From Microcella alkalica (lineage in GTDB: Bacteria; Actinomycetota; Actinomycetes; Actinomycetales; Microbacteriaceae): a stretch of 64,000 bases of DNA. A program made the position numbers and the translations under genes. Below the pieces are notes generated by a model. It saw nothing but the letters and a program-made list of their open reading frames with translations, had not been told where the DNA came from and did no database searches. Positions 14,175 to 34,496 of this stretch are shown one piece after another (position 1 is the stretch's first letter; the number at the start of each line of letters is the position of its first letter). The stretch spans positions 310,001 through 374,000 of the forward strand of contig NZ_JABUKC010000003.1 in NCBI RefSeq assembly GCF_014595885.1. The letters run 5' to 3'.

Positions 14175-14981
14175 CTAGCGCATGCGCAGGTCGGCCTCGA
14201 TCGAGGCCGTCGCGCGCTGCAGGGCGGGCAGCACGCGGGCGAGCTCCGACTCGGGGTCGCCGCGGCGGGCCGTGGAGACGTTGACCGCCGCGACCACGGA
14301 GCCCGAGGCGTCGCGCACCGGGGCGGCGATCGACCGCAGGCCCTCCTCCAGCTCGCCGTCGACGAGGGCGAAGCCCCCGCGGCGCACGCGCTCGAGCTCG
14401 GCGAGCAGCACCGTGCGGTCGACGAGCGTGGTCGGCGTGAACGGGTGCGGGCGCGATGCGGCGAGCACGGCATCCGCCTCATCGACGGGAAGCGCCGCGA
14501 GGAGCACGCGACCCAGCGAGGTCGCCCAGGCGGGGAAGCGGGTGCCGAGCTGGATGCTCACGCTCATGATGCGCCGCGTGGGCACCCGCGCGACGTAGAC
14601 GACGTCGAGCCCGTCGAGCACCGCGAGCGACGACGACTCGTCGACCGCGTGCGACAGCCGCTCGAGGTGCGGCTGCGCGACCGCCGGCAGCGACAGCGAC
14701 GACAGGTAGCTGTAGCCCAGCTCGAGCACGCGCGGGGTGAGCGCGAAGCGACGCTCGCTCGCGCGCACGTAGCCGAGCGTGACTAGCGTCGCGAGGAAGC
14801 GGCGGGCGGCGGCGCGCGGCACCTCGGCGCGCGCCGCAACCTCGCTCAGCGTGAGCTCGGCGTGGTCGGCGTCGAAGGCGCGGATGACCGCGAGGCCGCG
14901 CGCGAACGACTGCACGAAGTCGGCGCTCGCCTCGCCCGCAGCACCGCCGGCCTCGGCGGCGTCGACGGGCTCAGCGGTCAT
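14175..14981 (-). CDS. pcaR: IclR-family regulator, PcaR/PcaU-like
   Basis: 268 residues: N-terminal winged helix (TLSEVAARAEVPRAAARRFLATLVTLGYV, residues about 42-70) and a C-terminal IclR effector domain. Opening with FVQSFARGLAVIRAF is typical of the PcaR/PobR subgroup that controls protocatechuate catabolism. It lies 4 bp after pcaF on the same strand, so it is probably the last gene of a pcaIJF-pcaR operon. The tripartite operator at 17636-17664 in front of pcaI is its likely target. Whether it activates or represses cannot be read from sequence. Confidence 0.82.
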   Translation of the reverse strand: MTAEPVDAAEAGGAAGEASADFVQSFARGLAVIRAFDADHAELTLSEVAARAEVPRAAARRFLATLVTLGYVRASERRFALTPRVLELGYSYLSSLSLPAVAQPHLERLSHAVDESSSLAVLDGLDVVYVARVPTRRIMSVSIQLGTRFPAWATSLGRVLLAALPVDEADAVLAASRPHPFTPTTLVDRTVLLAELERVRRGGFALVDGELEEGLRSIAAPVRDASGSVVAAVNVSTARRGDPESELARVLPALQRATASIEADLRMR

Positions 14982-14985
14982 GCGC

Positions 14986-16155
14986 TCATCTTTCCAGAAC
15001 GACCGCGAGGCCCTGGCCGACGCCGATGCACAGCGCGACGACCGCGACGCCGCCGCCGCGCCGCCGCAGCTCGTGCGCGGCGTGGCCGAGGATGCGCCCG
15101 CCCGAGGCGCCGAGCGGGTGGCCGATCGCGATGGCGCCGCCGTGGATGTTCACGCGCTCGGGGTCGAGCTCGGGCCACAGGCGGATGCACGCGAGCGACT
15201 GCGACGAGAACGCCTCGTTGAGCTCGACGAGGTCGACATCGGCCCACGTGCGGCCGGCGCGGGCGAGCGCCCGGTTCGCGGCCTCGACGGGCGCGACGCC
15301 GAACACGTCGGGGTCGTTGCCGAAGGCGGCGCGACCCGCGATGCGGGCGAGCGGCTCGGCGTCGATCGCGCCCTCGGCGCCGAGCAGCACGGCCGAGGCG
15401 CCGTCGTTGATCGACGAGGAGTTGCCGGCCGTGACCGTGCCGTCGGCGGCGAAGAGCGCCTTGAGGCCGCCGAGGCGCTCGAGGGTCGTGTCGTCGCGGA
15501 TGCCCTCGTCGCGCGCGAGCTCGTGCCCCTGCACCTGCACGATCTCGCCGTCGTAGACGCCGTCGGCCCAGGCGCGCGCGGCGAGCTCGTGGCTGCGCAG
15601 CGCGAAGGCGTCCTGGTCGCCGCGCGAGATCCCGTGGATGGTCGCGAGCTTCTCGGCCGACTCGCCGTTCGAGATCGTCCACTCCTTGGGCAGGGCGCGG
15701 TTGACCATGCGCCAGCCGATCGCGGTGTTCCACAGCGTCGGGTTGCCGATCGCGGGGTAGGGCTTCGGCGACTTCTCGAGCACGTACGGGGCGCGGCTCA
15801 TCGACTCGACGCCGCCGGCGAGGATCACCTCGGCGTCGCCCGACTCGATGGCGCGCGAGCCCTGGATGACCGCGTCGAGCGACGAGCCGCACAGGCGATT
15901 GACGGTCGTGCCCGTGACGGTGGTCGGGAAGCCCGCGAGCAGGGCACCGAAGCGCGCGACGTTGCGGTTGTCCTCCCCCGCCTGGTTCGCGTCGCCGAAG
16001 ACGACGTCGTCGATGCGGGCCGGGTCAAGGCCAGCCCGATCGACGGCGGCGCGCATGACCGTCGCCGCGAGGTCGTCGGGCCGCACGTCGGCGAGGGCCC
16101 CGCCCGCGCGGCCGAACGGGGTGCGCACGGCGTCGTAGACGAAGGTCGCGGTCAT
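14986..16155 (-). CDS. pcaF: Beta-ketoadipyl-CoA thiolase
   Basis: 389 residues, class II thiolase. The nucleophilic Cys is in NRLCGSSLDAV (about residue 90), the catalytic His in GGAIAIGHPLGASG and the second Cys in VVALCIGVGQG. In this operon it would cleave 3-oxoadipyl-CoA to succinyl-CoA and acetyl-CoA, the last step of the beta-ketoadipate pathway. The start at ATG 16155 overlaps the pcaJ stop (TGATG). A generic acetyl-CoA acetyltransferase cannot be told apart by motif alone; the context decides. Confidence 0.88.
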   Translation of the reverse strand: MTATFVYDAVRTPFGRAGGALADVRPDDLAATVMRAAVDRAGLDPARIDDVVFGDANQAGEDNRNVARFGALLAGFPTTVTGTTVNRLCGSSLDAVIQGSRAIESGDAEVILAGGVESMSRAPYVLEKSPKPYPAIGNPTLWNTAIGWRMVNRALPKEWTISNGESAEKLATIHGISRGDQDAFALRSHELAARAWADGVYDGEIVQVQGHELARDEGIRDDTTLERLGGLKALFAADGTVTAGNSSSINDGASAVLLGAEGAIDAEPLARIAGRAAFGNDPDVFGVAPVEAANRALARAGRTWADVDLVELNEAFSSQSLACIRLWPELDPERVNIHGGAIAIGHPLGASGGRILGHAAHELRRRGGGVAVVALCIGVGQGLAVVLER

Positions 16156-16823
16156 CAGGACTCCTCGGGGGTGGCGGCCTCGACGACCACGGTCAGGGCG
16201 AGCCCGGTGAGCTCGCGCAGCTCGTCGAGGGTCGTCGTGCCGAACAGCTCGCGCACGGCGAAGCCCTCGGGAGTCACGTCGAAGACGGCCCGGTCGGTGT
16301 AGACGCGCGTGACGCAGCCGACGCCCGTGAGCGGGTAGGTGCAGGCCGCGACGAGCTTCGACTCGCCTCCCTTGGTCATGAGGTCGGTCATGACGTAGAC
16401 GTCCTTCGCGCCGATGGCGAGATCCATTGCGCCGCCGACGGCGGGAATCGCGTCGGGTGCGCCCGTCGACCAGTTGGCGAGGTCGCCGGTCTGCGACACC
16501 TGGAAAGCCCCGAGGATGCACAGATCGAGGTGCCCGCCACGCATCATGCCGAACGAGTCGGCGTGGTGGAAGTAGGCGGCGCCCGGCAGCTCGGTGACGG
16601 CGAGCTTGCCGGCGTTGATGAGGTCGGGGTCGACGTGACCCGGTGCCGGCGCGGGGCCCATGCCGAGCATCCCGTTCTCGGTGTGGAGGATGACCTCCGA
16701 GCCGGGCGGCAGATGATCGGCGACGAGCGTCGGTGCGCCGATGCCCAGGTTGACGTAGGCGCCGTCGGGGATGTCCGCGGCGACGCGGCGCGCGAGGGCG
16801 TCGCGATCGAGACGGTCGGTCAT
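16155..16823 (-). CDS. pcaJ: 3-oxoadipate CoA-transferase subunit B
   Basis: 222 residues. The catalytic glutamate lies in HTENGMLGMGP, and NLGIGAPTLVADHLP is the CoA-transferase beta-subunit opening. Together with PcaI it moves CoA from succinyl-CoA to 3-oxoadipate. It overlaps pcaI by 4 bp and pcaF by 1 bp, so the three are tightly coupled. Confidence 0.9.
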   Translation of the reverse strand: MTDRLDRDALARRVAADIPDGAYVNLGIGAPTLVADHLPPGSEVILHTENGMLGMGPAPAPGHVDPDLINAGKLAVTELPGAAYFHHADSFGMMRGGHLDLCILGAFQVSQTGDLANWSTGAPDAIPAVGGAMDLAIGAKDVYVMTDLMTKGGESKLVAACTYPLTGVGCVTRVYTDRAVFDVTPEGFAVRELFGTTTLDELRELTGLALTVVVEAATPEES

Positions 16824-17596
16824 CGGTCTCCTCCAGCGGTCGAGGTGGCGGCCGGGTCGTCGAGTCGCTCGGCGAGCGGCTCGCCCTGCAGATCGACGCC
16901 GCCGACGAACTCGCCGTCGCGCAGCCAGCGGCGGTTGCCGACCGCGACGACGCGGTCGACGAAGATGCCGGGCGTCACGATGGCCTCGGGGTCGAGCGAG
17001 CCGAGCGGCACGATCTCGTCGACCTGCACGACCGTGGTCGTCGCGGCGGTCGCCATGATGGGGCCGAAGTTGCGGGCCGTGCGGCGGTAGACGACGTTGC
17101 CCCAGCGGTCGGCGCGCAGGCCGCTGATGAGCGCGACGTCGGCACGGATGGGGTGCTCGAGCAGGTAGGTGCGGCCGTCGATCTCGCGGTGCTCCTTGCC
17201 CTCGGCGAGCGGCGTGCCGACGGCGGTCGGCGAGTAGAAGGCGCCGATGCCGGCCCCGGCGGCGCGGATGCGCTCGGCGAGGTTGCCCTGCGGCACGAGC
17301 TCGAGCTCGAGGCGGCCCTCGCGGTAGGCGCGGTCGAAGTGCCACGAGTCGCTCTGGCGCGGGAACGAGCAGACGACCTTGCGCACGCGGCCCTCGGCGA
17401 TGAGGCGGGCGAGCCCGACGTCGCCGCCGCCGGCGTTGTTGCTGACGATCGTGAGCTCGCTCGCTCCGGCGTCGATGAGGGCGTCGATGAGCTCGACGGG
17501 CTGGCCGGCGCGGCCGAAGCCGCCGACCATCACGGTCGCCCCGTCGCGGATGCCGGCGACCGCCTCGCGGAGGTCGGCGACGGTCTTGTCGATCAT
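16820..17596 (-). CDS. pcaI: 3-oxoadipate CoA-transferase subunit A
   Basis: 258 residues from the preferred start ATG 17596 (MIDKTVADLREAVAGI). The glycine-rich GGFGRAGQPVELIDAL and the later ADVALISGLRADRWGN are typical of family I CoA-transferase alpha subunits. Earlier ATGs (to 17671) would put codons through the operator at 17636-17664 and match no family sequence, so they are not used. First gene of pcaIJF-pcaR. Confidence 0.88.
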   Translation of the reverse strand: MIDKTVADLREAVAGIRDGATVMVGGFGRAGQPVELIDALIDAGASELTIVSNNAGGGDVGLARLIAEGRVRKVVCSFPRQSDSWHFDRAYREGRLELELVPQGNLAERIRAAGAGIGAFYSPTAVGTPLAEGKEHREIDGRTYLLEHPIRADVALISGLRADRWGNVVYRRTARNFGPIMATAATTTVVQVDEIVPLGSLDPEAIVTPGIFVDRVVAVGNRRWLRDGEFVGGVDLQGEPLAERLDDPAATSTAGGDR

Positions 17597-17635
17597 GCTG
17601 CGGTCCGCTTCTGCGACGGATGCCCGCCGCGAGTT

Positions 17636-17664
17636 GTTCGCTATGCGAACGAGTGTTCGCATAG
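17636..17664 (-). promoter_or_regulatory. Tripartite IclR (PcaR) operator in front of pcaI
   Basis: Three half-sites occur in a row: GTTCGC (17636-17641), TAT, GCGAAC (17645-17650), GAGT, GTTCGC (17655-17660). The latter pair extends to a perfect 10-bp palindrome CTATGCGAAC-GAGT-GTTCGCATAG (17641-17664). Three repeats, two palindromic plus one direct, is the arrangement reported for PcaU/PobR of Acinetobacter. A minus-strand TACTAT at the upstream edge could be the -10, so binding would overlap the transcription start. Confidence 0.75.
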
Positions 17665-17679
17665 TATCCATCGTAACGC

Positions 17680-17715
17680 CGACGCCCGCCGAGCGGAAGA
17701 GCTCGACGGGCGTCG
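17680..17715 (-). terminator. Terminator at the end of the cre operon
   Basis: Stem CGACGCCCG(C)CGAGC / GCTCG(A)CGGGCGTCG with one mismatch and a GGAAGA loop, 16 bases past the aldehyde dehydrogenase stop. It separates the cre operon from the pcaI promoter. Confidence 0.7.
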
Positions 17716-17731
17716 GGGGTGCGGCGTTCGC

Positions 17732-19243
17732 TCAGCGCCGGCGGCGGTGCACCGACTGCGGCGTGAGGTAGGCCTCGAGACCCTCGACGCCGTACTCCAC
17801 GCCCATGCCCGAGTCATGGCGACCGCCGAACGGCGCGGAGTGGTTCGAGGCGAAGAAGTTGATGCCGACCGATCCCGTGTCGACGCGGCGGGCCACCTCG
17901 AACGCGCGATCCTCATCGGCGCCGAAGACGATGCCGCCGAGGCCGAAGGGGGTGTCGTTCGCCACCTCGATCGCGTGCTCGACATCGCGCACCGGGATGA
18001 TCGTGATGACGGGCCCGAAGATCTCCTCGCGCGCGATCGTCATCTCGGGGGTCACGTCGGCGAAGACGGTCGGCACGACGAAGGTGCCGATGCCGGCCGG
18101 GTTGGGCAGGTCGCCGCCGGCGACGACGCGCGCGCCCTCGTCGACGCCCGAGCGGATGTACCCGCGTACGGTCGCCTCCTGGGCGGCGGTCGCCGTCGGC
18201 CCGAAGACCGTGATCGGGTCGAGCGGGTCGCCGAGGGGCGAGTTCGCGATCGTCTCCGCGACGAGATCGACGACCGCGGCCTCGTTCTCGGGCGTGACCA
18301 GGATGCGCGTGGAGATGTAGCAGGTCTGGCCCGTGTTGCGCAGGCAGCTGCGCACGAGCACCGACCGCAGGTGCTCGAGGTCGGCGTCGGGCAGCACGAT
18401 CGCCGACGACTTGCCGCCGAGCTCGAGCGTGACGGGGCGCAGCAGCTCGCCGCAGGCCGCGGCGATCCTGCGACCCACGGGCGTCGAGCCCGTGAAGGCG
18501 ACCTTCGCGACGTCGGGGTGACGCACGAGCAGGTCGCCCGCGGCGCCGTTGCCGGTGAGGAAATTCACGACGCCCGGCGGGAACCCCGCGGCGGCGGCCG
18601 CGTCGACGAGGAAGCGCGTCGACAGCGGCGTCGGCGAGGCGGGCTTCATGACGACCGTGCAGCCCGCGAGCAGGGCGGGCGCGAGCTTGATGACGACGAG
18701 GTTGATGGGGAAGTTCCACGGCGCGATGAGTGCGCACACCCCGATCGGGTCGCGGTTCACGACCGTCTCGTTGACGCCGTCGGGGAAGGGCCGGATGTCG
18801 TCGCGCTCGAGGTGCGAGGCGAGCCCGGCGAAGTGGCGCAGGATCGACGCGGCGTTCGCCGCCGCCTTCGCCGTCTCGGCGACCGGCGAGCCGTTCTCGA
18901 GCGTGTTGGTGAGGCCGAGGGGCACGGCGCGCGCCTCCACCTCGTCGGCCATACGGCGCAGCAGCTCGGCACGGTGCGCGGGGGTGGTCGCCCGCCAGCC
19001 GGCGAGCGCGGAGCGCGCGGCGGCGACAGCGGCATCCACATCGCGCTCGTCGGCGACCGGCACCGAGCCCCACTGCTCGCCCGTCGCCGGGTCGATGACG
19101 GGCGAGGTCGCGGTGCTGTGCGAGGGGCGCCAGGCTCCGTCGATGAACTGGTCGGTCACGTGCCGGTACGGCAGGCTCTCGACGGCCTCGGCGTGCGCCC
19201 GGCGCAGCGCCCCGACGTCGATCGTCACGGTCGAGGCGCTCAC
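17732..19243 (-). CDS. creG: Aldehyde dehydrogenase of the 4-cresol pathway (CreG-like)
   Basis: 503 residues, NAD(P)-dependent aldehyde dehydrogenase. The catalytic Glu is in LELGGKSSAIV, the catalytic Cys in NTGQTCYIS, and the cofactor loop in FTGSTPVGRRIA. In the described cre pathway this enzyme oxidises 4-hydroxybenzaldehyde to 4-hydroxybenzoate, which PobA then uses. The GTG start overlaps the creD stop (GTGA). Last gene of the operon. The letter follows the published assignment of CreG as aldehyde dehydrogenase. Confidence 0.82.
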   Translation of the reverse strand: MSASTVTIDVGALRRAHAEAVESLPYRHVTDQFIDGAWRPSHSTATSPVIDPATGEQWGSVPVADERDVDAAVAAARSALAGWRATTPAHRAELLRRMADEVEARAVPLGLTNTLENGSPVAETAKAAANAASILRHFAGLASHLERDDIRPFPDGVNETVVNRDPIGVCALIAPWNFPINLVVIKLAPALLAGCTVVMKPASPTPLSTRFLVDAAAAAGFPPGVVNFLTGNGAAGDLLVRHPDVAKVAFTGSTPVGRRIAAACGELLRPVTLELGGKSSAIVLPDADLEHLRSVLVRSCLRNTGQTCYISTRILVTPENEAAVVDLVAETIANSPLGDPLDPITVFGPTATAAQEATVRGYIRSGVDEGARVVAGGDLPNPAGIGTFVVPTVFADVTPEMTIAREEIFGPVITIIPVRDVEHAIEVANDTPFGLGGIVFGADEDRAFEVARRVDTGSVGINFFASNHSAPFGGRHDSGMGVEYGVEGLEAYLTPQSVHRRRR

Positions 19244-19884
19244 GAGAGCAGCTCCGTCTTCAGCAGCGCCTCGGCGCGCGCGAGCTCGGCCTCGGCCATC
19301 TGCACGGCCGCGTCGGTCAGCAGCTCGGGGACGATCTCCGAGCGCAGGCGACGGACGTACTCCGCGGGGCTGAGCCCGAACCAGCCGGAGGCGAGCGCGA
19401 TGCCCGTCGGCGTGAAGCGCCACAGGCGGTCGGCGTCGCGCACGAGGCTATCCTCCAGCGAATGCGAGACCTGGCGCGTGTCGTGCCCGTCGATGATCGC
19501 CGTCACGCGCTCGATGAACGCGTCGTCGTATCCGAGCCCGGGCAGCACCTCGCGGGCGATGTCGCAGCCGAAGCGCTCGTGCTGGAACCGGATGTCGGCC
19601 TTGCGCCAGTCGCCGCCGAAGCCCTCGGAGATGATCTTCGTCTCGTCGACGCGCGCCCAGCCGGTGTCGTGCAGCAGGGTCGTGACGCGCACGAGTAGGG
19701 CATCCGCCTCGGGGTACGCGTCGCACAGGCGCTCGGCGTACGCGACCGAGATCGGGAGGTGGATGTCGTTGCTGCGCGTGCGCGACTCGGTCACGATCGC
19801 GCGCCAGACCGGATCGAGATCGGTGATCGCGGGGTTGCCCTGGATGGGCGAGGTGTCGACGGCGAGGGCGGTGGGAAGAGGCAT
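19240..19884 (-). CDS. creD: HD-domain phosphohydrolase (CreD-like)
   Basis: 214 residues with an HD metal-phosphohydrolase pattern: LLHDTGWARVDE, AIIDGHDTRQ and VRDADRLWRF supply the His and Asp ligands. In the cre pathway CreD removes the phosphate from the oxidised aryl phosphates, giving free 4-hydroxybenzyl alcohol or aldehyde. It sits between the aldehyde dehydrogenase (4-bp overlap) and the ferredoxin reductase (14-bp gap). A related protein is encoded at 27644-28321. Confidence 0.82.
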   Translation of the reverse strand: MPLPTALAVDTSPIQGNPAITDLDPVWRAIVTESRTRSNDIHLPISVAYAERLCDAYPEADALLVRVTTLLHDTGWARVDETKIISEGFGGDWRKADIRFQHERFGCDIAREVLPGLGYDDAFIERVTAIIDGHDTRQVSHSLEDSLVRDADRLWRFTPTGIALASGWFGLSPAEYVRRLRSEIVPELLTDAAVQMAEAELARAEALLKTELLS

Positions 19885-19898: not shown

Positions 19899-21170
19899 TC
19901 AGACGAGCGTGGGCGCGGCCGGCTCGACCACGGACTTCTTGAGCGGGACGGAGGTGTCGGCGGCCGCCTCGGGCGGGATCGTCGCGCCGCGGCCCAGGGC
20001 CGAGCGCACCGCCATGAAGTCGAGCGGCTGGTTGACGCAGTCGGCGGCGAGCAGCTCGCCGTCGCGGTAGTAGAGCACCGAGAACTTCTCGGTGTCGGGG
20101 TCGCCGCGCAGCACCGTCGCGTCGTACCCGGTCGACAGGCCCGCGATCTGCAGCTTGATGTCGGCCTGGTCGCTCCAGAACCAGGGCGTCGTGCGGTACT
20201 CGTGCGGGTCGCCCATGAGGGTCGCCGCGGCGACCTTCGCCTGCTCGAGCGCGTTGTGCACGCTCTCGAGGCGCACGCGCGGCAGGCTCCCGCGCGCGTA
20301 GGGGTTCGGCATGAGGGCGCAGTCGCCCGCGGCCACGATCGACGGGTCGGAGGTGCGGCACGCGGCGTCGACGACGATGCCGCCGTCGACCTCGAGGCCC
20401 AGCTGCTCGGCGAGCTCGGTGCGCGGCACGACGCCGATGCCGACGAGCACGACGTCGGCGAGGATCACGGTGCCGTCCTCGAGGCGCACGCCGCTGACGG
20501 CGTCGGCTCCCTCGATCGCGGCGATGCGGGCATCCAGCACCACATCGATGCCGCGCCGGCGGTGCGCGTCGAGGTAGAACGCGCTCGTCTGCTCGGAGAC
20601 GACGCGGCCGACCAGGCGCGGCGCCGCCTCGAGCACGGTCACGGCGAGCCCGCGCTTGCGGGCTGAGGCCGCGACCTCGAGCCCGATGAAGCCGCCGCCG
20701 ATGACGACGAGCGAGCGGGCCGACTCGAGGCCCTCGGCGATCGCGGCGGCGTCGTCGGCGGTGCGCAGGTAGTGCACGCCCGGCAGGTCGATGCCGGGCA
20801 GGTCGAGGCGGCGGGGCGCGGCTCCCGTGGTAAGCGCGAGACGCGCGAAGGGGATGCGGCGGCCGGTCTCGGTGACCGCCTCGCCTCCGCCGTCGGCGTG
20901 CCGCTCGATCGCGGCGATCGTCTCGCCCGTGACGACCTCGACATCGTGCTGCGCGAACCAGTCGGCGGTGCGGAAGATGAGGTCGTCGCTCGTGATCTCG
21001 CCCTGCAGGTACGCCTTCGACAGCGGGGGGCGCTGGTACGGGGCGTGCGGCTCGTCGCCGACGAGCACGATGGGGCGCTCGTCGCCGAGCTCGCGGAGTG
21101 TCGCCGCGAGCTGCACGCCCGCCTGCGATGCTCCGACGATCAGGGTCGCGTCGTTCGCGGTGGCGGCCAT
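19899..21170 (-). CDS. creE: FAD-dependent ferredoxin reductase (CreE-like)
   Basis: 423 residues. Two dinucleotide-binding motifs are visible, IVGASQAGVQLAATL for FAD at the N-terminus and VVIGGGFIGLEVAAS for NAD(P)H near residue 150, plus the FAD-contacting AAGDCALMP. This is the putidaredoxin reductase type. It ends 1 bp from the ferredoxin gene and would feed electrons from NAD(P)H via that ferredoxin to the P450 CreJ. Confidence 0.88.
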   Translation of the reverse strand: MAATANDATLIVGASQAGVQLAATLRELGDERPIVLVGDEPHAPYQRPPLSKAYLQGEITSDDLIFRTADWFAQHDVEVVTGETIAAIERHADGGGEAVTETGRRIPFARLALTTGAAPRRLDLPGIDLPGVHYLRTADDAAAIAEGLESARSLVVIGGGFIGLEVAASARKRGLAVTVLEAAPRLVGRVVSEQTSAFYLDAHRRRGIDVVLDARIAAIEGADAVSGVRLEDGTVILADVVLVGIGVVPRTELAEQLGLEVDGGIVVDAACRTSDPSIVAAGDCALMPNPYARGSLPRVRLESVHNALEQAKVAAATLMGDPHEYRTTPWFWSDQADIKLQIAGLSTGYDATVLRGDPDTEKFSVLYYRDGELLAADCVNQPLDFMAVRSALGRGATIPPEAAADTSVPLKKSVVEPAAPTLV

Positions 21171-21171
21171 C

Positions 21172-21492
21172 TCACACCTGCTCGCTGGGGGTCGTGACCC
21201 GGTAGGTCTCGCCCTCGATGAGCTTGATCTGGCACGACAGGCGCGAGCGCTCCTCGCGCTCGACCGCGGTGCCGTCGAGCATCTCGTCCTCGAGCTCGCT
21301 CATCTCGCCGGCGATCGCCGCGGTCTCGTCGGAGACGAAGACGTGGCAGGTGGCGCACGACATGCTGCCGCCGCACTCGCCCACGATGCCGGGCACGCCG
21401 TTGCGCAGGGCGGTCTCCATGATCGAGACGCCGGGCGTGCCCTCGACGATGGTCTCGGTGCCGTCGTGGGCGGTGTAGATGACGGTGGTCAC
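21172..21492 (-). CDS. creF: [2Fe-2S] ferredoxin, adrenodoxin/putidaredoxin type (CreF-like)
   Basis: 106 residues. The cluster ligands are C-x5-C-x2-C in ECGGSMSCATCHVF and a fourth Cys in SRLSCQI, the vertebrate-type [2Fe-2S] pattern used by class I bacterial P450 systems. The GTG start (VTTVIYTAHDG) is fixed by an unusually good AGGAGG site 4-5 bases upstream. It shuttles electrons between the adjacent reductase and CreJ. Confidence 0.9.
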   Translation of the reverse strand: MTTVIYTAHDGTETIVEGTPGVSIMETALRNGVPGIVGECGGSMSCATCHVFVSDETAAIAGEMSELEDEMLDGTAVEREERSRLSCQIKLIEGETYRVTTPSEQV

Positions 21493-26652: not shown

Positions 26653-26732
26653 GACGACTCCTTCGTGGTCCGGCAGCGCGTCGGTGCGCTGGGTTCATTA
26701 GAGGCCCGCGCCACGGGAAGGGGGAGCGGTTC

Positions 26733-26747
26733 TTCCGCTCAGTGGAA
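26733..26747 (-). promoter_or_regulatory. IclR-type operator before creJ
   Basis: TTCCGCTCAGTGGAA: six of seven base pairs of a 15-bp palindrome are complementary. It lies between the end of creR and the start of creJ. The same architecture recurs at 27588 and 32386. Confidence 0.6.
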
Positions 26748-26752
26748 ACGAC

Positions 26753-27556: not shown

Positions 27557-27587
27557 CTCCGCCTCCTTGCGACCGGATGCTCGACGC

Positions 27588-27602
27588 TTCCGGTGAGCGG
27601 AA
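27588..27602. promoter_or_regulatory. IclR-type operator between creR and the second HD gene
   Basis: TTCCGGTGAGCGGAA, arms TTCCG/CGGAA perfect, centred in the 87-bp divergent gap. It could govern creR and the HD protein together. Confidence 0.6.
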
Positions 27603-27643
27603 GCATAGTTGTGCCGGGCCCGCGCCGGTGCGACCGTCGGCTC

Positions 27644-28321
27644 ATGAGCTCACCGACGAGCACGCGGTACCACCGCGACGTGCGCGGCCACATCCCGCCC
27701 GCCGAGGCCGTGCCCGGCTACCTCGCCCTGACCGAGCGGGACGCCGCCATCTGGGAGCGGGCCCGCGAGCACCTCGCCGTCCGCAACAACGACACCCACA
27801 CCCTCTACGCCTACGGGCTCGCCCGCGCGCTCGTCGAGCGGGTGCCGGGCGCCGACGAGCGCGTCGTGCTGCCGGCGATCCTGCTGCACGACACCGGGTG
27901 GTCGACCGTGCCCGACGAGCTCATCCTGGAGGCGATCGCGCCCGGTGGGGGGCGGCCCGACCTCGTGCGGCAGCACGAGGTGGAGGGCGCTCGGATCGCG
28001 AGGGAGGTGCTCGGCGACCTCGGGCATCCGGCCGACGTCATCGAGCGCGTCGTCGCGATCATCGACGGGCACGACTCGCGGCTCGAGGCCCTCTCGGTCG
28101 ACGACGCCTGCGTGAAGGACGCCGACAAGCTGTGGCGCGTCACTCCGCACGGCATCGGCATCGTGTGCGGCTGGTTCGGGCTCACGCGCGACGAGTCGCT
28201 GCGCATCACCTCGGCGCGCGTGCAGAACAGCCTGTTCACCGACGAGGCGCGGGCGATGGGGCTCGCGCTCGCCGCGACCGCCTCGATCGACCTCGTGCCG
28301 CAGCGGCAGGGGCTCGAGTAG
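27644..28321 (+). CDS. Second HD-domain phosphohydrolase, CreD-like
   Basis: 225 residues with the same three metal-ligand blocks as CreD (LLHDTGWSTVPDE, AIIDGHDSRLEA, VKDADKLWRVTPHG) and a shared C-terminal GWFGLTRDE region. The two differ in the N-terminal 40 residues. It is transcribed away from creR and shares its operator. No counterpart is assigned in the described cresol pathway. It may act on another phosphorylated intermediate or alkylphenol phosphate, or be redundant. The start ATG 27644 lacks a clear ribosome site. Confidence 0.78.
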   Translation: MSSPTSTRYHRDVRGHIPPAEAVPGYLALTERDAAIWERAREHLAVRNNDTHTLYAYGLARALVERVPGADERVVLPAILLHDTGWSTVPDELILEAIAPGGGRPDLVRQHEVEGARIAREVLGDLGHPADVIERVVAIIDGHDSRLEALSVDDACVKDADKLWRVTPHGIGIVCGWFGLTRDESLRITSARVQNSLFTDEARAMGLALAATASIDLVPQRQGLE

Positions 28322-28368: not shown

Positions 28369-28791
28369 TCAGTCGGTTCGGCGGGCCTCGTCGAGGATGG
28401 GCTTGGCGAGCTTGAACGCGATGTTCGCCGCCGGCACGCCCGCGTAGATCGCGCTCTGCAGGATCACCTCGACGATCTCGTCGGGGGTGAGCCCGTTGCG
28501 CAGCGCGGCGTGCACGTGCATCTCGAACTCCTCCTCGTGGCCGAGAGCGATCATCGAGCTCAGCACCGCGATCGAGCGGTCGCGGCGCGCGAGGCCCGGC
28601 CGCGACCAGATCTCGCCCCACGCGTAGCGCGTGATGAGGTCCTGGAAGTCGGCCGTCGACGGCGTCGTGCCGGCGATCGCGCGGTCGACGTGCGCGTCGG
28701 AGAGCACCTCGCGGCGCACGACCATCCCGCGGTCGTAGCGGGCGCCGTCGGTGAGGCCCTCGCCCTCGGGGCGCGGCGTCGAGACGCTCAT
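28369..28791 (-). CDS. pcaC: 4-carboxymuconolactone decarboxylase
   Basis: 140 residues, AhpD-like fold. The conserved stretch SMIALGHEEEFEMHVHAALRNGLTPDEI carries the family residues. It converts 4-carboxymuconolactone to beta-ketoadipate enol-lactone. In some actinobacteria PcaC is fused to PcaD as PcaL; here the two are separate genes overlapping by 4 bp (ATGA). Last gene of pcaHGBDC. Confidence 0.9.
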   Translation of the reverse strand: MSVSTPRPEGEGLTDGARYDRGMVVRREVLSDAHVDRAIAGTTPSTADFQDLITRYAWGEIWSRPGLARRDRSIAVLSSMIALGHEEEFEMHVHAALRNGLTPDEIVEVILQSAIYAGVPAANIAFKLAKPILDEARRTD

Positions 28792-29573
28792 CGCGCACCT
28801 CCGTGGGCGGTGAGGAAGTCGAGCAGGGCGGCCGCGGTCGCGGCGGGGTCCTCGGCGGGGGGCAGGTGCGCGACGCCGGGCACCATGACCGCCCGGCCAT
28901 CGGCGACGCCGCGGGCGATCTCGTCGGCCTTCGCCTCGGGCGCCACGGCGTCGTGCTCGCCCCAGAGCGCGAGCACGGGCATCCGGATCTCGCCGAGCCG
29001 GTCGCGCACGTCGTAGTCGGTCAGCGCCTCGCAGCAGCGGGCGTAGCTCTCGTCGTCGGCGCCCTGCAGCACGTGCAGCAGGCGGCCGCTGAGCTCGGGC
29101 TCGCGCTCCATCGAGCCGGGCGCGAACCAGCGCTGCGCGGAGGGGACGATGAGCACCGAGGTCGACTGCTCGCGCACCGTCGCGGCGCGCTCGCGCCAGG
29201 CCTCGGGCGTGCCGAGCTGCGCGCCCGAGGCGACGATCGCGGCGGCGGTCACGAGATCGGGATGCCGCAGGGCGAGCTCGAGGCCCGTCGCACCGCCGAG
29301 CGAGACCCCGGCGTAGAGGATGCTGCGCTCGCCCCGATCGCGGACGGCGGCGGCGACCGCGTCGGCCAGCTCGCCGACCGTGAACGGCTCGCTCGTCGGC
29401 GGCGCGTCGCCGTGCCCCGGGAGATCCCAGGCGGCGACGCGGAAGCGCTCGCGCAGCAGCGGCGCGGCGGTCTCCCACAGGATCGTCGACGTGCCGAGCG
29501 AGGGGCCCAGCACGAGCAGCGGGGCGCCCTCCGGGCCGACGGTCGGGGCGAGGTGCACGGCGGGCACGGTCAT
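28788..29573 (-). CDS. pcaD: 3-oxoadipate enol-lactonase
   Basis: 261 residues, alpha/beta hydrolase. The nucleophile Ser lies in YAGVSLGGATGLE, the acid in WGEHDAVAP and the His in VAHLPPAE. It hydrolyses beta-ketoadipate enol-lactone to beta-ketoadipate. ATG 29573 overlaps the pcaB stop by 4 bp. Confidence 0.9.
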   Translation of the reverse strand: MTVPAVHLAPTVGPEGAPLLVLGPSLGTSTILWETAAPLLRERFRVAAWDLPGHGDAPPTSEPFTVGELADAVAAAVRDRGERSILYAGVSLGGATGLELALRHPDLVTAAAIVASGAQLGTPEAWRERAATVREQSTSVLIVPSAQRWFAPGSMEREPELSGRLLHVLQGADDESYARCCEALTDYDVRDRLGEIRMPVLALWGEHDAVAPEAKADEIARGVADGRAVMVPGVAHLPPAEDPAATAAALLDFLTAHGGAR

Positions 29574-30943
29574 CGGTCGTCCTCCTCGAGGGCGCGGTCG
29601 ACGAGGGCGCTCGTGGCGCCCGTGTAGGCGGCGGGGTCGAGCAGGGCGTCGAGGTCGAGCCCCGCGACGGCCGGCTCGGCGCGCAGCAGGCGCTCGAGCT
29701 CAGCGGCGTCCGCGGCCCGGCCGAGCAGGGCCGTCGCGCGGTCGGCGCCCAACAGCGGCGCGAGCACGATGCCGAGCCGCTCGGCCACGAGCAGCCCGCC
29801 GGTCAGCGAGAGCGTGCGGGCGGCGGCGGCCGGGTCGACGACGAGCCCGTCGGCGAGCGCGCGGGCCGTGCTCGCCGCACCGAGCGCGAGCCGCAGCAGC
29901 TCGCGCAGCGTCGACCACTCGGCGTGCCAGGCGCCGTCGGGCCGCTCGTCGACGGCGAGGGCGGACGCCGTGTGCAGGGTCGCGGCGAGCTGCGGCGCGC
30001 GCAGCGCGGCCGAGCGGACGAGCACCGCTCCCACCGGGTTGCGCTTCTGCGGCATCGCCGACGACCCGCCCGGCGCCGACTCGGCGACCTCGCCGACCTC
30101 GGTGCGCGCGAGCAGCGCGACATCGCCTGCGAGCACGCCGAGCGCATCGATGGCCTGCACGAGCGCGTCGCCGAGCTCGGTCACCGGCCAGCGCGTCGTG
30201 TGCCAGGGCAGCTCGGGCGCGGCGAGGGCGAGCTCGGCGGCGAAGGCGTCGACGAGCGCGAGCGCGGTGCGCGCGGGGTCGGCCGCGTCGCTCGCGCGCG
30301 CGTGCTCGACCAAGGCCGCGAGCGTGCCCGCGGCACCGCCGAGCTGCGCCGGCAGCTGCTCGAGCACGGCGGCGAGGCGGCGGCGCGCGCGACGCACGGC
30401 GACCAGCCAGGTCGCGGCGCGCATCCCCATCGTGGTCGGCACGGCGTGCTGGCCGAGGGTGCGGGCGGCGACGACGAGGTCGCGATGGTCGCGCGCGAGG
30501 GTCGCGAGCGCGGCCTCGACGCCCCCGAGCTCGACGACGGTGCGCTCGCCGGCGCGGCGGGCCAGCAGCATGAGGGCGGAGTCGACGATGTCCTGACTCG
30601 TCGCGCCGCGGTGCACCCAGGCCCGGTCGGCCTCGTCGACGCAGCCGCGCAGCCGGCTCACGAGCGGGATGACGGGGTTGCCGCCGCCGACGGCCGCCTC
30701 GGCGACGTCGTCGACGCCGACGCCGTGGCCGTGGGCCGGATGCCCGGCACCGCGCCAGCCGAGCGCGACGCTGATCCGCTCGGCGGCGTCGGCCGGCGCG
30801 ACGCCCACCGTCGCCCACGCACGGGTGAGCGCGACCTCGGCGGCGACGAGCGCGTCGAGCAGCACCGCGTCGCCCACGGCGTCGGCGGCGCCGATCGAGA
30901 CCGGGGAGGCCAGGCCCCGGTCGACGCTCGGATCAGTAGGCAA
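29570..30943 (-). CDS. pcaB: 3-carboxy-cis,cis-muconate cycloisomerase
   Basis: 457 residues, fumarase/aspartase superfamily, with the signature GGSSAMPQKRNPVGA near residue 297 and HRGATSQDIVDSA around 110. It lactonises 3-carboxymuconate, the product of PcaHG. The start is most likely the TTG at 30943 (reading PTDPSVDRGL next), which overlaps pcaG by 11 bp. A weak start in a tightly overlapped position suggests coupling to pcaG translation. Confidence 0.88.
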   Translation of the reverse strand: MPTDPSVDRGLASPVSIGAADAVGDAVLLDALVAAEVALTRAWATVGVAPADAAERISVALGWRGAGHPAHGHGVGVDDVAEAAVGGGNPVIPLVSRLRGCVDEADRAWVHRGATSQDIVDSALMLLARRAGERTVVELGGVEAALATLARDHRDLVVAARTLGQHAVPTTMGMRAATWLVAVRRARRRLAAVLEQLPAQLGGAAGTLAALVEHARASDAADPARTALALVDAFAAELALAAPELPWHTTRWPVTELGDALVQAIDALGVLAGDVALLARTEVGEVAESAPGGSSAMPQKRNPVGAVLVRSAALRAPQLAATLHTASALAVDERPDGAWHAEWSTLRELLRLALGAASTARALADGLVVDPAAAARTLSLTGGLLVAERLGIVLAPLLGADRATALLGRAADAAELERLLRAEPAVAGLDLDALLDPAAYTGATSALVDRALEEDDR

Positions 30944-31496
30944 GGAACACGGTCTCCTTCTCGCCCTGCAGGCGGATGTCGAAGGTCAGCCCGCCGTCGG
31001 GGGTGCGCGTGGCGATGAGCGTAGCGCGCTCCTCGCCGCTCAGGCTCGCCAGCAACGGGTCGGCGGCGAGCGCCGCCGCATTCTCCGGCAGGTAGGCGCG
31101 AGTGTGCAGCTTGTTCGGCAGACCGCGGGCGTAGACGATGACCGCGAAGAACGGGGCCTTCCCCGGCTCGGCGCCGGGGTTCCTCGTCCAGAACTCGTAC
31201 CGTCCCTCGTCGGAGGTGAAGGCGCGACCGAAGCCGGTGAAGGTGTGGCCGTCGCGGCGGCAGGCGCCGCGGGCGCGCGGGATCGAGCCGTCGGCGTCGG
31301 CCTGCCAGATCTCGACGAGGGCGTCGGGGATCGCCGCGCCCTCGCCGTCGGTGATCGTGCCGCCGAGCACGAGCGAGCCGGGCGAGTGCGGAAAGACGAC
31401 CTGGTTCATCGCCGGGTAACCGAGGCCGAAGGCGAAGAACGGCCCCACGGTCTGCCCGGGGGTGGGCGCGTGCGTGCGCGGCGGGACGACGGTCAT
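30933..31496 (-). CDS. pcaG: Protocatechuate 3,4-dioxygenase alpha subunit
   Basis: 187 residues, intradiol dioxygenase fold (TPGQTVGPFFAFGL opening, LVEIWQADADG, FTSDEGRYEFWTRNPG). The alpha subunit lacks the iron ligands that PcaH supplies and helps shape the active site. Start ATG 31496 overlaps the pcaH stop by one base. Confidence 0.92.
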   Translation of the reverse strand: MTVVPPRTHAPTPGQTVGPFFAFGLGYPAMNQVVFPHSPGSLVLGGTITDGEGAAIPDALVEIWQADADGSIPRARGACRRDGHTFTGFGRAFTSDEGRYEFWTRNPGAEPGKAPFFAVIVYARGLPNKLHTRAYLPENAAALAADPLLASLSGEERATLIATRTPDGGLTFDIRLQGEKETVFLAY

Positions 31497-32314
31497 CAGT
31501 GCTCCTTCTCGGGCTCGAACCAGGTGGCGTCGGGACCGTCGACGACGATGTCGAAGCGGTACCCCATCGAGAACTCGGGGCTCGTGAGGTCGTGGTCGTA
31601 GACGCCGACGAGCCGGTCGCGATCCTTCTGGCTGCGGATCGACTGGTAGATGGGGTCGAGCGCGAACAGCGGGTCGCCGGGGAAGTACATCTGCGTGATG
31701 ATGCGCTGCGTGAACGACGAGCCGAAGATCGAGAAGTGGATGTGGGCGGGGCGCCAGGCGTTCACGTGGTTGCGCCAGGGGTACGGCCCCGGCTTGATCG
31801 TCGTGAAGCGGTAGCGGCCCTCGTCATCGGTGACGGTGCGGCCCGCACCCGTGAAGTTCGGGTCGAGCGGCGCGGGGTGCTGGTCGCGCTGGTGGATGTA
31901 GCGGCCCGCGGCGTTGGCCTGCCAGATCTCGACGAGCTGGTTGCGCAGCGGGCGCCCCCACGAGTCGAGCAGTCGCCCCTCGACCGTCATGCGCTCGCCG
32001 AGCGGCTCGCCGGCGTGCTGCAGCGTGAGGTCGGATTCGATCGCGGCGACGTCGCGCTGGCCGAAGGCCGGTGAGAGCAGCTCGATCGTCTCGGGGTCGA
32101 CCAGGCGCGGGTTCTTAGTGGGGTGGCGCAGGATGCTGGAGCGGTACGGCGGGAAGTCGTAGAGCGTCGTCGGCAGCGGCTCGCCGGCGGCGACGCGGCG
32201 CTCGGCGTCGGCGTGCGCCGCGGCGATCTCGGCGCTGATCTGCGCCTGCGATGCCTGGTCGGGGGCCGCGAGCAGCGACTCGGGCGCTGCGGCGGGGGGC
32301 GGTGTCGTCGTCAT
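31496..32314 (-). CDS. pcaH: Protocatechuate 3,4-dioxygenase beta subunit
   Basis: 272 residues. The non-haem Fe(III) ligands are all visible: Tyr in GRYIHQRDQ, Tyr in PGPYPWRN and two His in RPAHIHFSIFG. It cleaves protocatechuate to 3-carboxy-cis,cis-muconate. The start is ATG 32314 with AAGGAG upstream. The N-terminal 40 residues are Ala/Pro-rich. It heads the pcaHGBDC operon, divergent from the IclR regulator at 32421. Confidence 0.94.
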   Translation of the reverse strand: MTTTPPPAAAPESLLAAPDQASQAQISAEIAAAHADAERRVAAGEPLPTTLYDFPPYRSSILRHPTKNPRLVDPETIELLSPAFGQRDVAAIESDLTLQHAGEPLGERMTVEGRLLDSWGRPLRNQLVEIWQANAAGRYIHQRDQHPAPLDPNFTGAGRTVTDDEGRYRFTTIKPGPYPWRNHVNAWRPAHIHFSIFGSSFTQRIITQMYFPGDPLFALDPIYQSIRSQKDRDRLVGVYDHDLTSPEFSMGYRFDIVVDGPDATWFEPEKEH

Positions 32315-32385
32315 GGGGTCTCCTTGCGGTGCTGCGGAGGGCTGGTGCGATTGTCGTCGCGCGCACGCGGCGCGCGCCCCGCGCT

Positions 32386-32400
32386 TCCCACTCAATGGGA
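32386..32400. promoter_or_regulatory. IclR-type operator between pcaH and pobR
   Basis: TCCCACTCAATGGGA, six of seven pairs complementary, in the 106-bp divergent gap. It has the same 15-bp layout as the sites at 26733 and 27588 and would allow joint control of pcaHGBDC and the regulator. Confidence 0.6.
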
Positions 32401-32420
32401 GTCGGTGTCATCCTCGGAGC

Positions 32421-33173
32421 ATGGCGAACTCCCCCTCGGGCGACTCCGTGACCGATCGGCTCGTCCGCGTGCTCGAGACCTTCACTCCCGCCCGCACGGT
32501 GCAGACCGCCGCCGAGATCGGGCGGCGATCGGGCCTGCCGCGATCGACCGCCCACCGCATGGTCGGCGAGCTCGTCGACGCGGGGCTGCTCGAGCGCGAC
32601 GACGATCGGCGCATCCGCATCGGCATGCGGCTCTGGGAGCTCGCGACGCGCTCCTCCCAGGCCCTGCGCCTGCGGCAGGCCGCGATGCCCGCGATGGAGC
32701 GGGTGCAGGCCCGCGTCCGCGAGCACACCCAGCTGGCGGTGCTCGAGCAGGACGAGGCGCTCTTCCTCGAGCGGCTCAGCGGCCCGACCTCGGGGTCGAA
32801 CGTCACCCGTGTCGCCGGCCGGCTGCCGCTGCACGCCTCCTCCTCCGGCCTCGTGCTGCTGGCCTACGGCGGCCGCGAGCTGCAGGAGCGCATCCTCGCC
32901 GGTCGGCTACCCCGTCTCACGAGCGAGACGATCGGCGACCCGGCCGCGCTGCGCCGCAAGCTCGCCGAGGTGCGCACCCTTGGGCACGCGGTCGCGCCCG
33001 GCTCGATCGAACTCGTCTCGACGGGCGTCGCCGTGCCGGTGCGCGACGAGACCGGAGCCGTCGTCGCCGCCCTCTCGGTGGTGCTGCCTCGCGACGCGCA
33101 GACCGGGCCGGCGCTCGCCGAGCTGCACCGCGGTCGCATCGAAATCGAGCGCGCGCTCGGCGTGCGCTCGTAG
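32421..33173 (+). CDS. pobR: IclR-family regulator, PobR-like
   Basis: 250 residues: winged helix (TAAEIGRRSGLPRSTAHRMVGELVDAGLL) and IclR effector domain. It lies between the divergent pcaH operon and pobA on its own strand, the usual place for a 4-hydroxybenzoate or protocatechuate regulator. Whether it reads 4-hydroxybenzoate (PobR) or protocatechuate is undecided. Confidence 0.72.
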   Translation: MANSPSGDSVTDRLVRVLETFTPARTVQTAAEIGRRSGLPRSTAHRMVGELVDAGLLERDDDRRIRIGMRLWELATRSSQALRLRQAAMPAMERVQARVREHTQLAVLEQDEALFLERLSGPTSGSNVTRVAGRLPLHASSSGLVLLAYGGRELQERILAGRLPRLTSETIGDPAALRRKLAEVRTLGHAVAPGSIELVSTGVAVPVRDETGAVVAALSVVLPRDAQTGPALAELHRGRIEIERALGVRS

Positions 33174-33308
33174 CGCCCGTCCGTCGGCCACGGCGCCCAA
33201 CCGCTCGTCGCACGCGGTCTCATTCATCGGGATGCTCGCCTTACGTCGCCCGATCGTCGACGCACACTGTGCTCGCCCGATCACGGGCAGACGTCGAAGG
33301 AGACCACC

Positions 33309-34496
33309 ATGACCACGACCCTCCGCACCCGCGTCGCGATCGTCGGCGCCGGGCCCGCCGGCCTGCTGCTGTCGCACCTGCTCGACGAGGCGGGCATCGA
33401 CTCGATCGTCGTCGACCTGCGCACGCGCGGCGAGATCGAGAGCACGATCCGCGCCGGGATCCTCGAGCAGGGAACCGTCGAGCTGCTCGACCGCCTCGGC
33501 AAGCACAGCCGCGCCCGCACCGTCGGGCACCGCCACGACGGCATCGAGCTGCGCTTCCAGGGCGAGGGGCACCGCATCGACTTCCCGTCGCTCACCGGCC
33601 GCAGCGCCTGGCTGTACCCGCAGCACGAGGTGCTCAAAGACCTCATCGCCGCGCGCGTGGCCGCCGAGCAGGATCTGCGCTTCGGCATCACCGTGACCGC
33701 GATCGACGACACCGACCCCCTGCGCCCCCTCGTCATCGCGACCGACGCCGACGGCGACGAGCTCGTCATCGAGGCCGACGTCGTGGTCGGCGCCGACGGC
33801 TCGCGCAGCGTTGTGCGCCCCACCGTGACCGGCTCGAGCCAGGGCGGCTACTTCCGCGAGTACCCCTTCGCCTGGTTCGGCATCCTCTGCGAGGCGCCGC
33901 CGAGCTCGGAGGAGCTCATCTACAGCAACTCCCCCGACGGCTTCGCGCTCATCAGCCAGCGCAGCGCGACCGTGCAGCGCATGTACTTCCAGTGCGACCC
34001 CGAGCTCGACCCCGACTCGCTCAGCGAGGAGCAGATCTGGGTCGAGATGCAGAAGCGCGTGCCCGGCACGACCCTGCTCGAGGGGCCCATCTTCCAGCGC
34101 GACGTGCTGCGGTTCCGCAGCTTCGTCGCCCACGCCATGCGCAAGGGCCGCGTCGCGATCATCGGCGACGCCGCCCACACGGTGCCGCCGACGGGCGCGA
34201 AGGGCATGAACCTCGCCGTCGCCGACGTCGCGCTGCTGCACGAGGCGCTGCGCGCGCTGCTACTCGAGGGCGACGAGCGCCTCATCGACTCGTTCGAGGA
34301 GCGCGCCCTGCAGCGCATCTGGAAGGCCCAGCACTTCTCGTGGTGGATGACGACGATGCTGCACGTCACCGACGACGCGAGCGACTTCGACCGCCGCCGC
34401 CAGCTCGGCGAGCTGCGCTCGGTGGTCGAGTCGACGGCTGGGCAGACCTACCTCGCCGAGGCGTACACGGGCTGGCCGCTGCCCTCGGCGGAGTGA
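33309..34496 (+). CDS. pobA: 4-hydroxybenzoate 3-monooxygenase
   Basis: 395 residues, the standard length. FAD motifs IVGAGPAGLLLSHLLDEAGI at the N-terminus and GDAAHTVPPTGAKGMNLAVAD near residue 285 are those of p-hydroxybenzoate hydroxylase. It turns 4-hydroxybenzoate into protocatechuate and links the cre pathway to the pca pathway. Start ATG 33309 follows GAAGGAG. A direct repeat TCGCCCGATC sits twice in its 135-bp upstream gap (about 33246 and 33275). Confidence 0.93.
   Translation: MTTTLRTRVAIVGAGPAGLLLSHLLDEAGIDSIVVDLRTRGEIESTIRAGILEQGTVELLDRLGKHSRARTVGHRHDGIELRFQGEGHRIDFPSLTGRSAWLYPQHEVLKDLIAARVAAEQDLRFGITVTAIDDTDPLRPLVIATDADGDELVIEADVVVGADGSRSVVRPTVTGSSQGGYFREYPFAWFGILCEAPPSSEELIYSNSPDGFALISQRSATVQRMYFQCDPELDPDSLSEEQIWVEMQKRVPGTTLLEGPIFQRDVLRFRSFVAHAMRKGRVAIIGDAAHTVPPTGAKGMNLAVADVALLHEALRALLLEGDERLIDSFEERALQRIWKAQHFSWWMTTMLHVTDDASDFDRRRQLGELRSVVESTAGQTYLAEAYTGWPLPSAE

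Follow-up and report, generated by a model that had tools for sequence, protein, structure and literature searches.

The window, a 64-kb stretch of Microcella alkalica DNA (G000:C3:310001-374000, in a 2.49-Mb genome of 15 contigs), carries between positions 14175 and 34496 a block of about 20 kb which is very probably a complete catabolic locus for 4-cresol, leading by a phosphate-tagged route into the beta-ketoadipate pathway. Like 4-ethylphenol, 4-cresol is a pollutant and a phenol derived from lignin. An earlier note on this DNA had proposed that the whole pathway lies here as a single catabolic locus, and homology, gene content and gene order support that proposal. Family scans recovered every gene it had named, from the cytochrome P450 (P450) to PcaF and including PobA, PcaHG and the split phosphoenolpyruvate-synthase-like pair, as an open frame inside the block; its gene list stands in every entry, and omitted a second HD-domain protein (HD2; 27644-28321, plus strand) and three IclR regulators.

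What was observed is which genes are present, how they are ordered, what they resemble and which motifs and sites are conserved; from this we would predict the following activities, substrate and regulation. CreHI would phosphorylate the phenol hydroxyl with ATP by a phospho-histidine relay. The resulting phosphate ester would be oxidised at its methyl group by CreJ-CreE-CreF, a class I P450 system, the tag would be removed by phosphohydrolases (CreD and, probably, HD2), and CreG and CreC would complete the oxidation to 4-hydroxybenzoate. PobA would then form protocatechuate, and PcaHG, PcaB, PcaC, PcaD, PcaIJ and PcaF would carry it to succinyl-CoA and acetyl-CoA, while IclR2 would bind predicted TTCC-N7-GGAA sites before creJ and HD2 and control both genes. 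Phosphorylation may in addition trap the freely diffusing phenol, as is proposed in PMC12167813, and such trapping would fit a block without a transporter gene. No PcaK was found among the frames scanned in the block, as the earlier note had it, and a search of the whole genome with the aromatic-acid major facilitator family TIGR00895 yielded 9 weak matches that all stayed below the cut-off, which none of the 14 control genomes reached either.

The minus strand carries, from 27556 downward, IclR2, the P450, the ATP-grasp and swivel subunits, a short-chain dehydrogenase/reductase (SDR), ferredoxin, ferredoxin reductase, an HD protein (HD1), aldehyde dehydrogenase, pcaI, pcaJ, pcaF and IclR1 (PcaR), and from 32314 to 28369 pcaH, G, B, D and C in that order; HD2, IclR3 and pobA lie on the plus strand. 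Start codons were picked by hand for pcaI, creC, creF, pcaH and IclR3. The features are as follows.

14175-14981, minus: IclR1, PcaR-type regulator (TIGR02431 pcaR_pcaU, 316 bits, over cut-off)
14986-16155, minus: pcaF, 3-oxoadipyl-CoA thiolase by family (TIGR02430, 432 bits, equivalog cut-off 597 not reached; PRK09050, 444, cut-off 605)
16155-16823, minus: pcaJ, CoA-transferase subunit B (TIGR02428, 288 bits, over cut-off)
16820-17596, minus: pcaI, CoA-transferase subunit A (TIGR02429, 358 bits, over cut-off)
17732-19243, minus: creC-like aldehyde dehydrogenase (PF00171, 503 bits; 65.5% to the gene of Corynebacterium genome G097)
19240-19884, minus: creD-like HD phosphohydrolase, HD1 (PF01966; 60.6% to G097; HD1 clade)
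19899-21170, minus: creE-like ferredoxin reductase (Pyr_redox_2 and Reductase_C; 53.6% to G097)
21172-21492, minus: creF-like [2Fe-2S] ferredoxin (PF00111; 57.1% to G097)
21528-22271, minus: creG-like SDR, putative 4-hydroxybenzyl alcohol dehydrogenase (adh_short_C2; 64.8% to G097)
22315-24168, minus: creH-like swivel/substrate-binding subunit of phenol dikinase, 617 residues, TDIGGMMSH (NF006150, 1047 bits; 64.4% to G097)
24258-25331, minus: creI-like ATP-grasp subunit (PF01326, 373 bits; 57.5% to G097)
25333-26652, minus: creJ-like P450, heme motif FGYGIHYCLG (71% over 403 residues to PDB 5GWE)
26732-26748, no strand: predicted IclR2 operator upstream of creJ, CTTCCGCTCAGTGGAAA
26753-27556, minus: IclR2, regulator adjoining the cre operon (IclR_C, 129 bits)
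27587-27603, no strand: predicted IclR2 operator between IclR2 and HD2, CTTCCGGTGAGCGGAAG, perfect 5-bp arms
27644-28321, plus: HD2, second HD-domain phosphohydrolase by homology (PF01966, 42.5 bits; 41% to HD1; own deep clade)
28369-28791, minus: pcaC, 4-carboxymuconolactone decarboxylase (TIGR02425, 165.5 bits, over cut-off)
28788-29573, minus: pcaD, 3-oxoadipate enol-lactonase by family (TIGR02427, 210 bits, cut-off 256 not reached)
29570-30943, minus: pcaB, 3-carboxy-cis,cis-muconate cycloisomerase by family (TIGR02426, 325 bits, cut-off 356 not reached)
30933-31496, minus: pcaG, protocatechuate 3,4-dioxygenase alpha (TIGR02423, 176 bits, over cut-off)
31496-32314, minus: pcaH, protocatechuate 3,4-dioxygenase beta (TIGR02422, 344 bits, over cut-off)
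32385-32401, no strand: candidate IclR3 operator between pcaH and IclR3, TTCCCACTCAATGGGAG
32421-33173, plus: IclR3 regulator (IclR_C, 100 bits)
33309-34496, plus: pobA, 4-hydroxybenzoate 3-monooxygenase (NF006091, 486 bits, over cut-off; TIGR02360, 381, cut-off 539 not reached)

The cre and pca genes of the block

The P450 of G097 is 100% identical to PDB 5GWE over 400 residues. We take 5GWE and 5XJN to be CreJ of Corynebacterium glutamicum, the PDB title reading only 'Cytochrome P450'. The window P450 shows 71.2% identity to 5GWE over 403 residues, and in the PDB search it scored 663-666 bits against 5XJN/5GWE versus 260 for the next P450. The earlier note had named poor similarity to CreHIJ, together with nearer relatives that do something else, as a ground for giving up its proposal, and this was not what we found. 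In a quick tree the window P450 and CreJ share a 28-row clade (Shimodaira-Hasegawa approximate likelihood-ratio support 98), and ferredoxin and ferredoxin reductase are encoded within the same cre gene run. The gene set agrees with the Cre set of C. glutamicum, as had been claimed: all eight cre proteins align at 54-71% with those of G097 (from creC to creI 65.5, 60.6, 53.6, 57.1, 64.8, 64.4 and 57.5%), and the order is the same in both, namely aldehyde dehydrogenase, HD1, ferredoxin reductase, ferredoxin, SDR, creH, creI and P450. The order from creC (cg0637) to creJ (cg0645) tabulated in PMC7764795 equals that of G097. Since the order equals that of the Corynebacterium operon and also recurs in further named genomes, chance assembly of these genes is not an issue.

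The swivel-subunit motif TDIGGMMSH is identical in the window and G097. According to PMC12167813, T/SxxGGxxxH is the motif leading to the catalytic histidine, and the residue just before this histidine is Ser in CreH and PpsA and Cys in HpeH; the window CreH fits the motif with Ser, a residue it shares with CreH and PpsA and not with HpeH. The PpsAB phenylphosphate synthase of Thauera aromatica, which acts on phenol anaerobically, is a homologous dikinase with Ser at this place (PMC12167813), a likeness drawn from its description; it differs from the window route in its anaerobic continuation.

A P450 of another function was considered and rejected, the PDB neighbours beyond 5XJN/5GWE reaching at most 260 bits. 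The Chloroflexota P450s, weighed for the same question, are 38-44% identical to the window P450 and have no other cre match nearby, and the four placed in the tree form a separate clade. These Chloroflexota genes lie in L054-L074 and L076-L080, with no other cre match in the DNA examined around them. The sole other P450 match found in the own genome is at G000:C1:612865-613347.

CreJ-like P450s occur in 13 of 242 genomes of the Corynebacterium hylobatis genus, G097 being among the 13. Compared with G097, the window additionally has HD2, an adjoining IclR2, and pob-pca genes on both sides of the cre genes; no pca, IclR2 or HD2 match was seen in the part read of an 18-kb stretch of G097, and an IclR2 match is present in two other Corynebacterium loci, L021 and L025.

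The protocatechuate branch is complete, with pcaHG, B, C, D, IJ and F all in the block together with pobA. The presence of pobA and the pca genes points to 4-hydroxybenzoate as product and, therefore, to a para-methyl phenol as substrate. PcaH, PcaG, PcaC, PcaI, PcaJ and PcaR exceed their family cut-offs, and PobA is over the cut-off of the PRK08243 subfamily. For pcaB, a nitrosuccinate lyase model scores above TIGR02426 (392 bits) but under its own cut-off of 650. The full pob/pca set is shared with known beta-ketoadipate pathways; pcaD and pcaC are separate genes in the window, though a fused PcaDC model scores best for each. What weighs against the 4-cresol reading is that PcaB, PcaD, PcaF and PobA match their families strongly and yet stay under the NCBIfam equivalog cut-offs (325 vs 356, 210 vs 256, 432 vs 597 and 381 vs 539 bits), that one member of the genus, G025, has the P450 and no PcaH match, and that cre genes also occur beside Hpe-like carboxylase genes elsewhere, so that cre genes alone do not fix the substrate.

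As a side observation, an uncultured actinobacterium (L082, 7.7 kb) carries a P450 40% identical to that of the window, with a pcaHGBDC set on one side of it and pobA on the other. The DNA examined there gave no match to creHI, and this is perhaps another P450 feeding 4-hydroxybenzoate.

Probable movement and predicted regulation of the block

At the locus the nearest named relatives belong to Microcella, among them M. alkalica DSM 19663 (L008), in which the block is present (P450 94-95% identical). Within the genus the P450 was found in 5 of 26 genomes, the own one counted, and PcaH in 4 of 26; among 398 sampled Microbacteriaceae the P450 was found in 29, with a stop inside the match in 11 of these. 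CreJ-like P450 genes with one or two internal stops were seen in small-genome Microbacteriaceae (L126-L135 and L137), reflecting decay or assembly error, and a block-bearing genus member has a second pcaH copy (92%) on another contig (G001:C6:173088-173885, L098).

The block is flanked by a glyoxalase gene and a gene of 712 residues, with a spacing of 23 kb in the window and 24 kb in G001. The P450 of G024 and that of G025 each share a contig with the glyoxalase gene and are separated from it by about 12 kb, the distance seen in the window. In nine genus members (G004, G005, G006, G007, G011, G012, G013, G015 and G023) the flank genes are only 1.2-6.2 kb apart, and at the five of these short sites that were examined the sole block-gene match was a lone pcaD-like gene (76%) in G011. 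It stands at about 4023-4790 of L142, at the place of the 20-kb block of the window, and is likely a relic of block loss. In the remaining 13 genomes the flank genes are widely separated or split between contigs, or one of them is without a close match. In G007 the genes of the block, pobA through pcaF in unchanged order, are found at C1:1.64-1.66 Mb, and the flank site of this genome (0.84 Mb) is without a block gene; no IclR1 match was found after its pcaF. We read these gene positions as a block that has been gained, lost and moved as a whole unit. General family scans reported no mobile-element gene, no search having been aimed at such elements.

Alignment of the IclR2-HD2 and creJ-IclR2 gaps in seven copies (the window, L003, L004, L008, L139, L005 and L007) showed one conserved palindrome per gap, in the window CTTCCGGTGAGCGGAAG and CTTCCGCTCAGTGGAAA, respectively. 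The pattern TTCC-N2-T-N-A-N2-GGAA has two occurrences in the 64-kb window, exactly those in the two gaps, and none of 100 shuffles gave two (mean 0.02). The relaxed form TTCC-N7-GGAA was found within 260 bases before the gene, across actinobacterial loci, for 19 of 32 creJ and 9 of 23 HD2 genes and for 0 of 206 of the other seven cre genes, dinucleotide shuffles giving means of 0.07 creJ and 0.02 HD2 genes with a site. Leaving out the five loci used for pattern discovery, the counts are 14/27 and 5/18. The same counts speak the other way in that no site was found before creJ in 13 of 32 loci and before HD2 in 14 of 23. Seven Microbacteriaceae loci are without the site, five having HD2 inside the cre operon and two being too short to tell, and removal of only these seven gives 19/25 for creJ and 9/18 for HD2. 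Four of the nine HD2 sites are in the gap common to a divergent IclR2; the other five (L009, L012, L018, L024 and L027) lie 73-114 bases upstream of HD2 itself, which there is codirectional with IclR2, the P450 and HD2 starts of the relatives, and hence these distances, being set from the first aligned residue.

In Pseudarthrobacter oxydans CC185 (L013) there is no HD2 at the cre locus; an HD2 (60%) is encoded elsewhere on that contig, at a distance of about 79 kb from creJ. Its surroundings (4.5 kb), searched after the TTCC-N7-GGAA rule was fixed, hold exactly one exact site, TTCCGCTGGACGGAA, with its first base about 55 bases before the extrapolated HD2 start. An IclR2 match stands beside creJ in all 22 actinobacterial loci that extend 8 kb or more to either side (the set, with 12 Pseudomonadota loci chosen likewise, to which locus counts below refer unless said otherwise), because of which we assign the sites to IclR2 and infer that it controls both creJ and HD2 through these predicted operators.

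A different palindrome, TTCCCACTCAATGGGAG (32385-32401, TTCCC-N7-GGGA), is conserved between pcaH and IclR3 in the aligned Microcella copies; it is a 1-mismatch match to the symmetric pattern, of which at least one match arose in 2 of 100 shuffles. The three IclR regulators and the two palindromes, one at cre/HD2 and the other at pcaH/IclR3, suggest that the cre and pca parts may be adjacent but separately controlled, with pca/pob serving 4-hydroxybenzoate in general and cre serving 4-cresol. It fits with this that 13 of the 22 actinobacterial loci have no pca/pob gene over thresholds in the DNA examined. In G007, on the other hand, the complete pobA-pcaF set is kept together elsewhere on the chromosome, which one would expect of a jointly useful unit. 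All nine pca/pob genes adjoin cre genes in three of the 22 loci, one of them Microcella, and this supports the 4-cresol reading of the block. Separate control is a real possibility, somewhat short of an even chance, and is compatible with the locus as a whole serving 4-cresol.

HD2, a second HD-domain protein

Over 192 aligned positions, HD1 and HD2 share 41% identity. In a tree of 87 HD proteins from 80 loci and the two of the window, 48 HD1 rows separated from 41 HD2 rows with 100/100 support, so that HD2 falls outside the CreD clade and in a clade of its own; the tree was drawn with a midpoint root and carries a long-branch warning, the two-way split being independent of the root. Both clades contain Actinomycetota and Pseudomonadota (by family name mostly Rhodobacterales), and the HD1/HD2 pair would therefore be older than the operon's spread between the two phyla, or would have travelled with it. 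H52, H82-D83, H111, H143 and D161 of HD2 are kept in 41 of 41 HD2 rows, and of the HD1 equivalents H42 is kept in 47 of 48 rows and H72-D73, H102, H134 and D152 in all 48; these are presumably metal ligands, as in the HD family. Near-fixed differences set the two apart (HD1/HD2: G88/I98, R99/V108 and R149/K158), the HD1 residue standing in 48/48 rows at each position and the HD2 residue in 38, 38 and 41 of 41. AlphaFold models of HD1 and HD2 reached predicted local distance difference test scores of 94.2 and 93.5, respectively.

By these comparisons HD2 is probably a second phosphohydrolase of the same pathway. By tree clade it occurs together with cre genes at 19 of the 22 actinobacterial loci (not at L013, L015 and L021) and at all 12 Pseudomonadota loci, and in five Microbacteriaceae loci it sits inside the cre operon. 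It is unlikely, against this and against the sites standing just before HD2 in five loci and in Pseudarthrobacter, far from creJ, that HD2 is a mere neighbour with an unrelated substrate, for example a nucleotide. Such a role would agree with the structural comparisons, which tell against HD2 as a pathway enzyme: PDB sequence searches with HD1 and HD2 gave no match, and the nearest structures that Foldseek gave for the two models were HD hydrolases of a general kind, YpgQ among them, with no match reaching E<=0.001. It would also agree with the four HD2 loci in which the site lies in the gap common to IclR2 and could serve IclR2 alone, and with Corynebacterium, where HD2 was not found in 13 CreJ-bearing genomes, the sole match per genome (36-39%) fitting CreD and absence being less certain in at least one. 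One of these 13 genomes we take to be C. glutamicum, in which the pathway is known to work.

Tentatively, and at what we consider close to an even chance, we propose that the phosphate-tag pathway anciently had two phosphohydrolases, HD2 being a co-regulated aryl-phosphate phosphohydrolase with its own specificity (e.g. for 4-carboxyphenyl phosphate, or for release of over-trapped substrate) that was lost in Corynebacterium, and that the cre set is an exchangeable front end, which with pob/pca would mineralise 4-cresol and with Hpe-like carboxylase genes would mineralise 4-ethylphenol via phosphorylated hydroxyacetophenone.

Hpe-like neighbourhoods and the meaning of the locus

HpeHI, HpeCBA, the NagD-like HpeD and the AMP-forming acyl-CoA synthetase HpeE degrade 4-hydroxyacetophenone via phosphorylated intermediates (PMC9618137). 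This pathway, described for Rhodococcus rhodochrous GD02 with acetovanillone and 4-hydroxyacetophenone, likewise starts with a two-component phenol dikinase followed by phosphorylated intermediates (PMC9618137, PMC12167813), but the window route is without a carboxylase, has a P450 and HD proteins, and has Ser and not Cys before the motif histidine. Hpe likeness was judged below without the sequence of a characterised Hpe protein.

Beside cre-type genes, L149 (of the same genome as L035) carries an SDR, an acyl-CoA synthetase, a haloacid dehalogenase (HAD) hydrolase, a carboxyltransferase, a biotin carboxylase, a biotin carrier and an IclR regulator, and L148 (of the same genome as L047) has a similar set. 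Among 19 Pseudomonadota loci, 12 have at least one Hpe-like gene, a carboxylase subunit being reached in four (L043, L044, L046 and L052), and seven showed none, three of them (L038, L048 and L050) despite about 9 kb or more downstream. In two Microbacterium loci (L028 and L029) carrier, carboxylase, carboxyltransferase, HAD and synthetase genes adjoin the cre genes at 36-47%. Of 10 such genomes that were searched, 9 have a relative of the synthetase at 66% or more, which in some cases stands away from the cre genes. We infer for those organisms a Cre-Hpe hybrid route for 4-ethylphenol via phosphorylated 4-hydroxyacetophenone. The Pseudomonadota loci with Hpe-like neighbours are L035, L036, L037, L039-L041, L043, L044, L046, L047, L049 and L052, with L148 and L149:443-13970 besides; P450, CreHI, HD1, HD2, SDR and ferredoxin are the cre-type genes in such neighbourhoods.

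An Hpe-type route in the own genome was rejected, the best carboxyltransferase match being 24%, in a 1135-residue frame, with the Hpe-like protein of L149 and not a characterised HpeB as query and the carboxyltransferase alone sought of HpeCBA; by this result the Cre-Hpe hybrid does not apply to the window. Although related P450/CreHI loci (of Pseudomonadota, mostly Rhodobacterales, and two Microbacterium) adjoin Hpe-like carboxylase, HAD hydrolase and acyl-CoA synthetase genes, it is very unlikely that the window route prefers another para-alkylphenol, 4-ethylphenol or longer, with 4-cresol as a side activity, for the block has none of the Hpe-like genes, it passes 4-hydroxybenzoate on by way of pobA and pca, and in the tree its P450 stands with CreJ, apart from the Hpe-linked P450s.

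The pathway itself is already known, and the window is a new carrier of it; p-cresol use via ortho and meta cleavage in Rhodococcus opacus 1CP is a different route (PMC13101518). What is new is HD2, the predicted operator common to creJ and HD2, the block apparently behaving as a unit, and the cre genes adjoining Hpe-like genes. In the open-access literature we found no description of HD2, its operator, the Cre-Hpe neighbourhood or the Microcella cre locus, which is weak evidence of novelty, subscription papers lying mostly outside that literature.

The pathway described in Corynebacterium is here extended to a form with a single locus, which apparently moves among Microbacteriaceae as one unit. 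HD2 is a second phosphohydrolase candidate that has a predicted operator, and a common front end of phosphate tagging may feed two routes for alkylphenols. The reason why such pathways begin with phosphorylation is called unclear in PMC12167813, and a second dedicated phosphatase, if true, would bear on this question.

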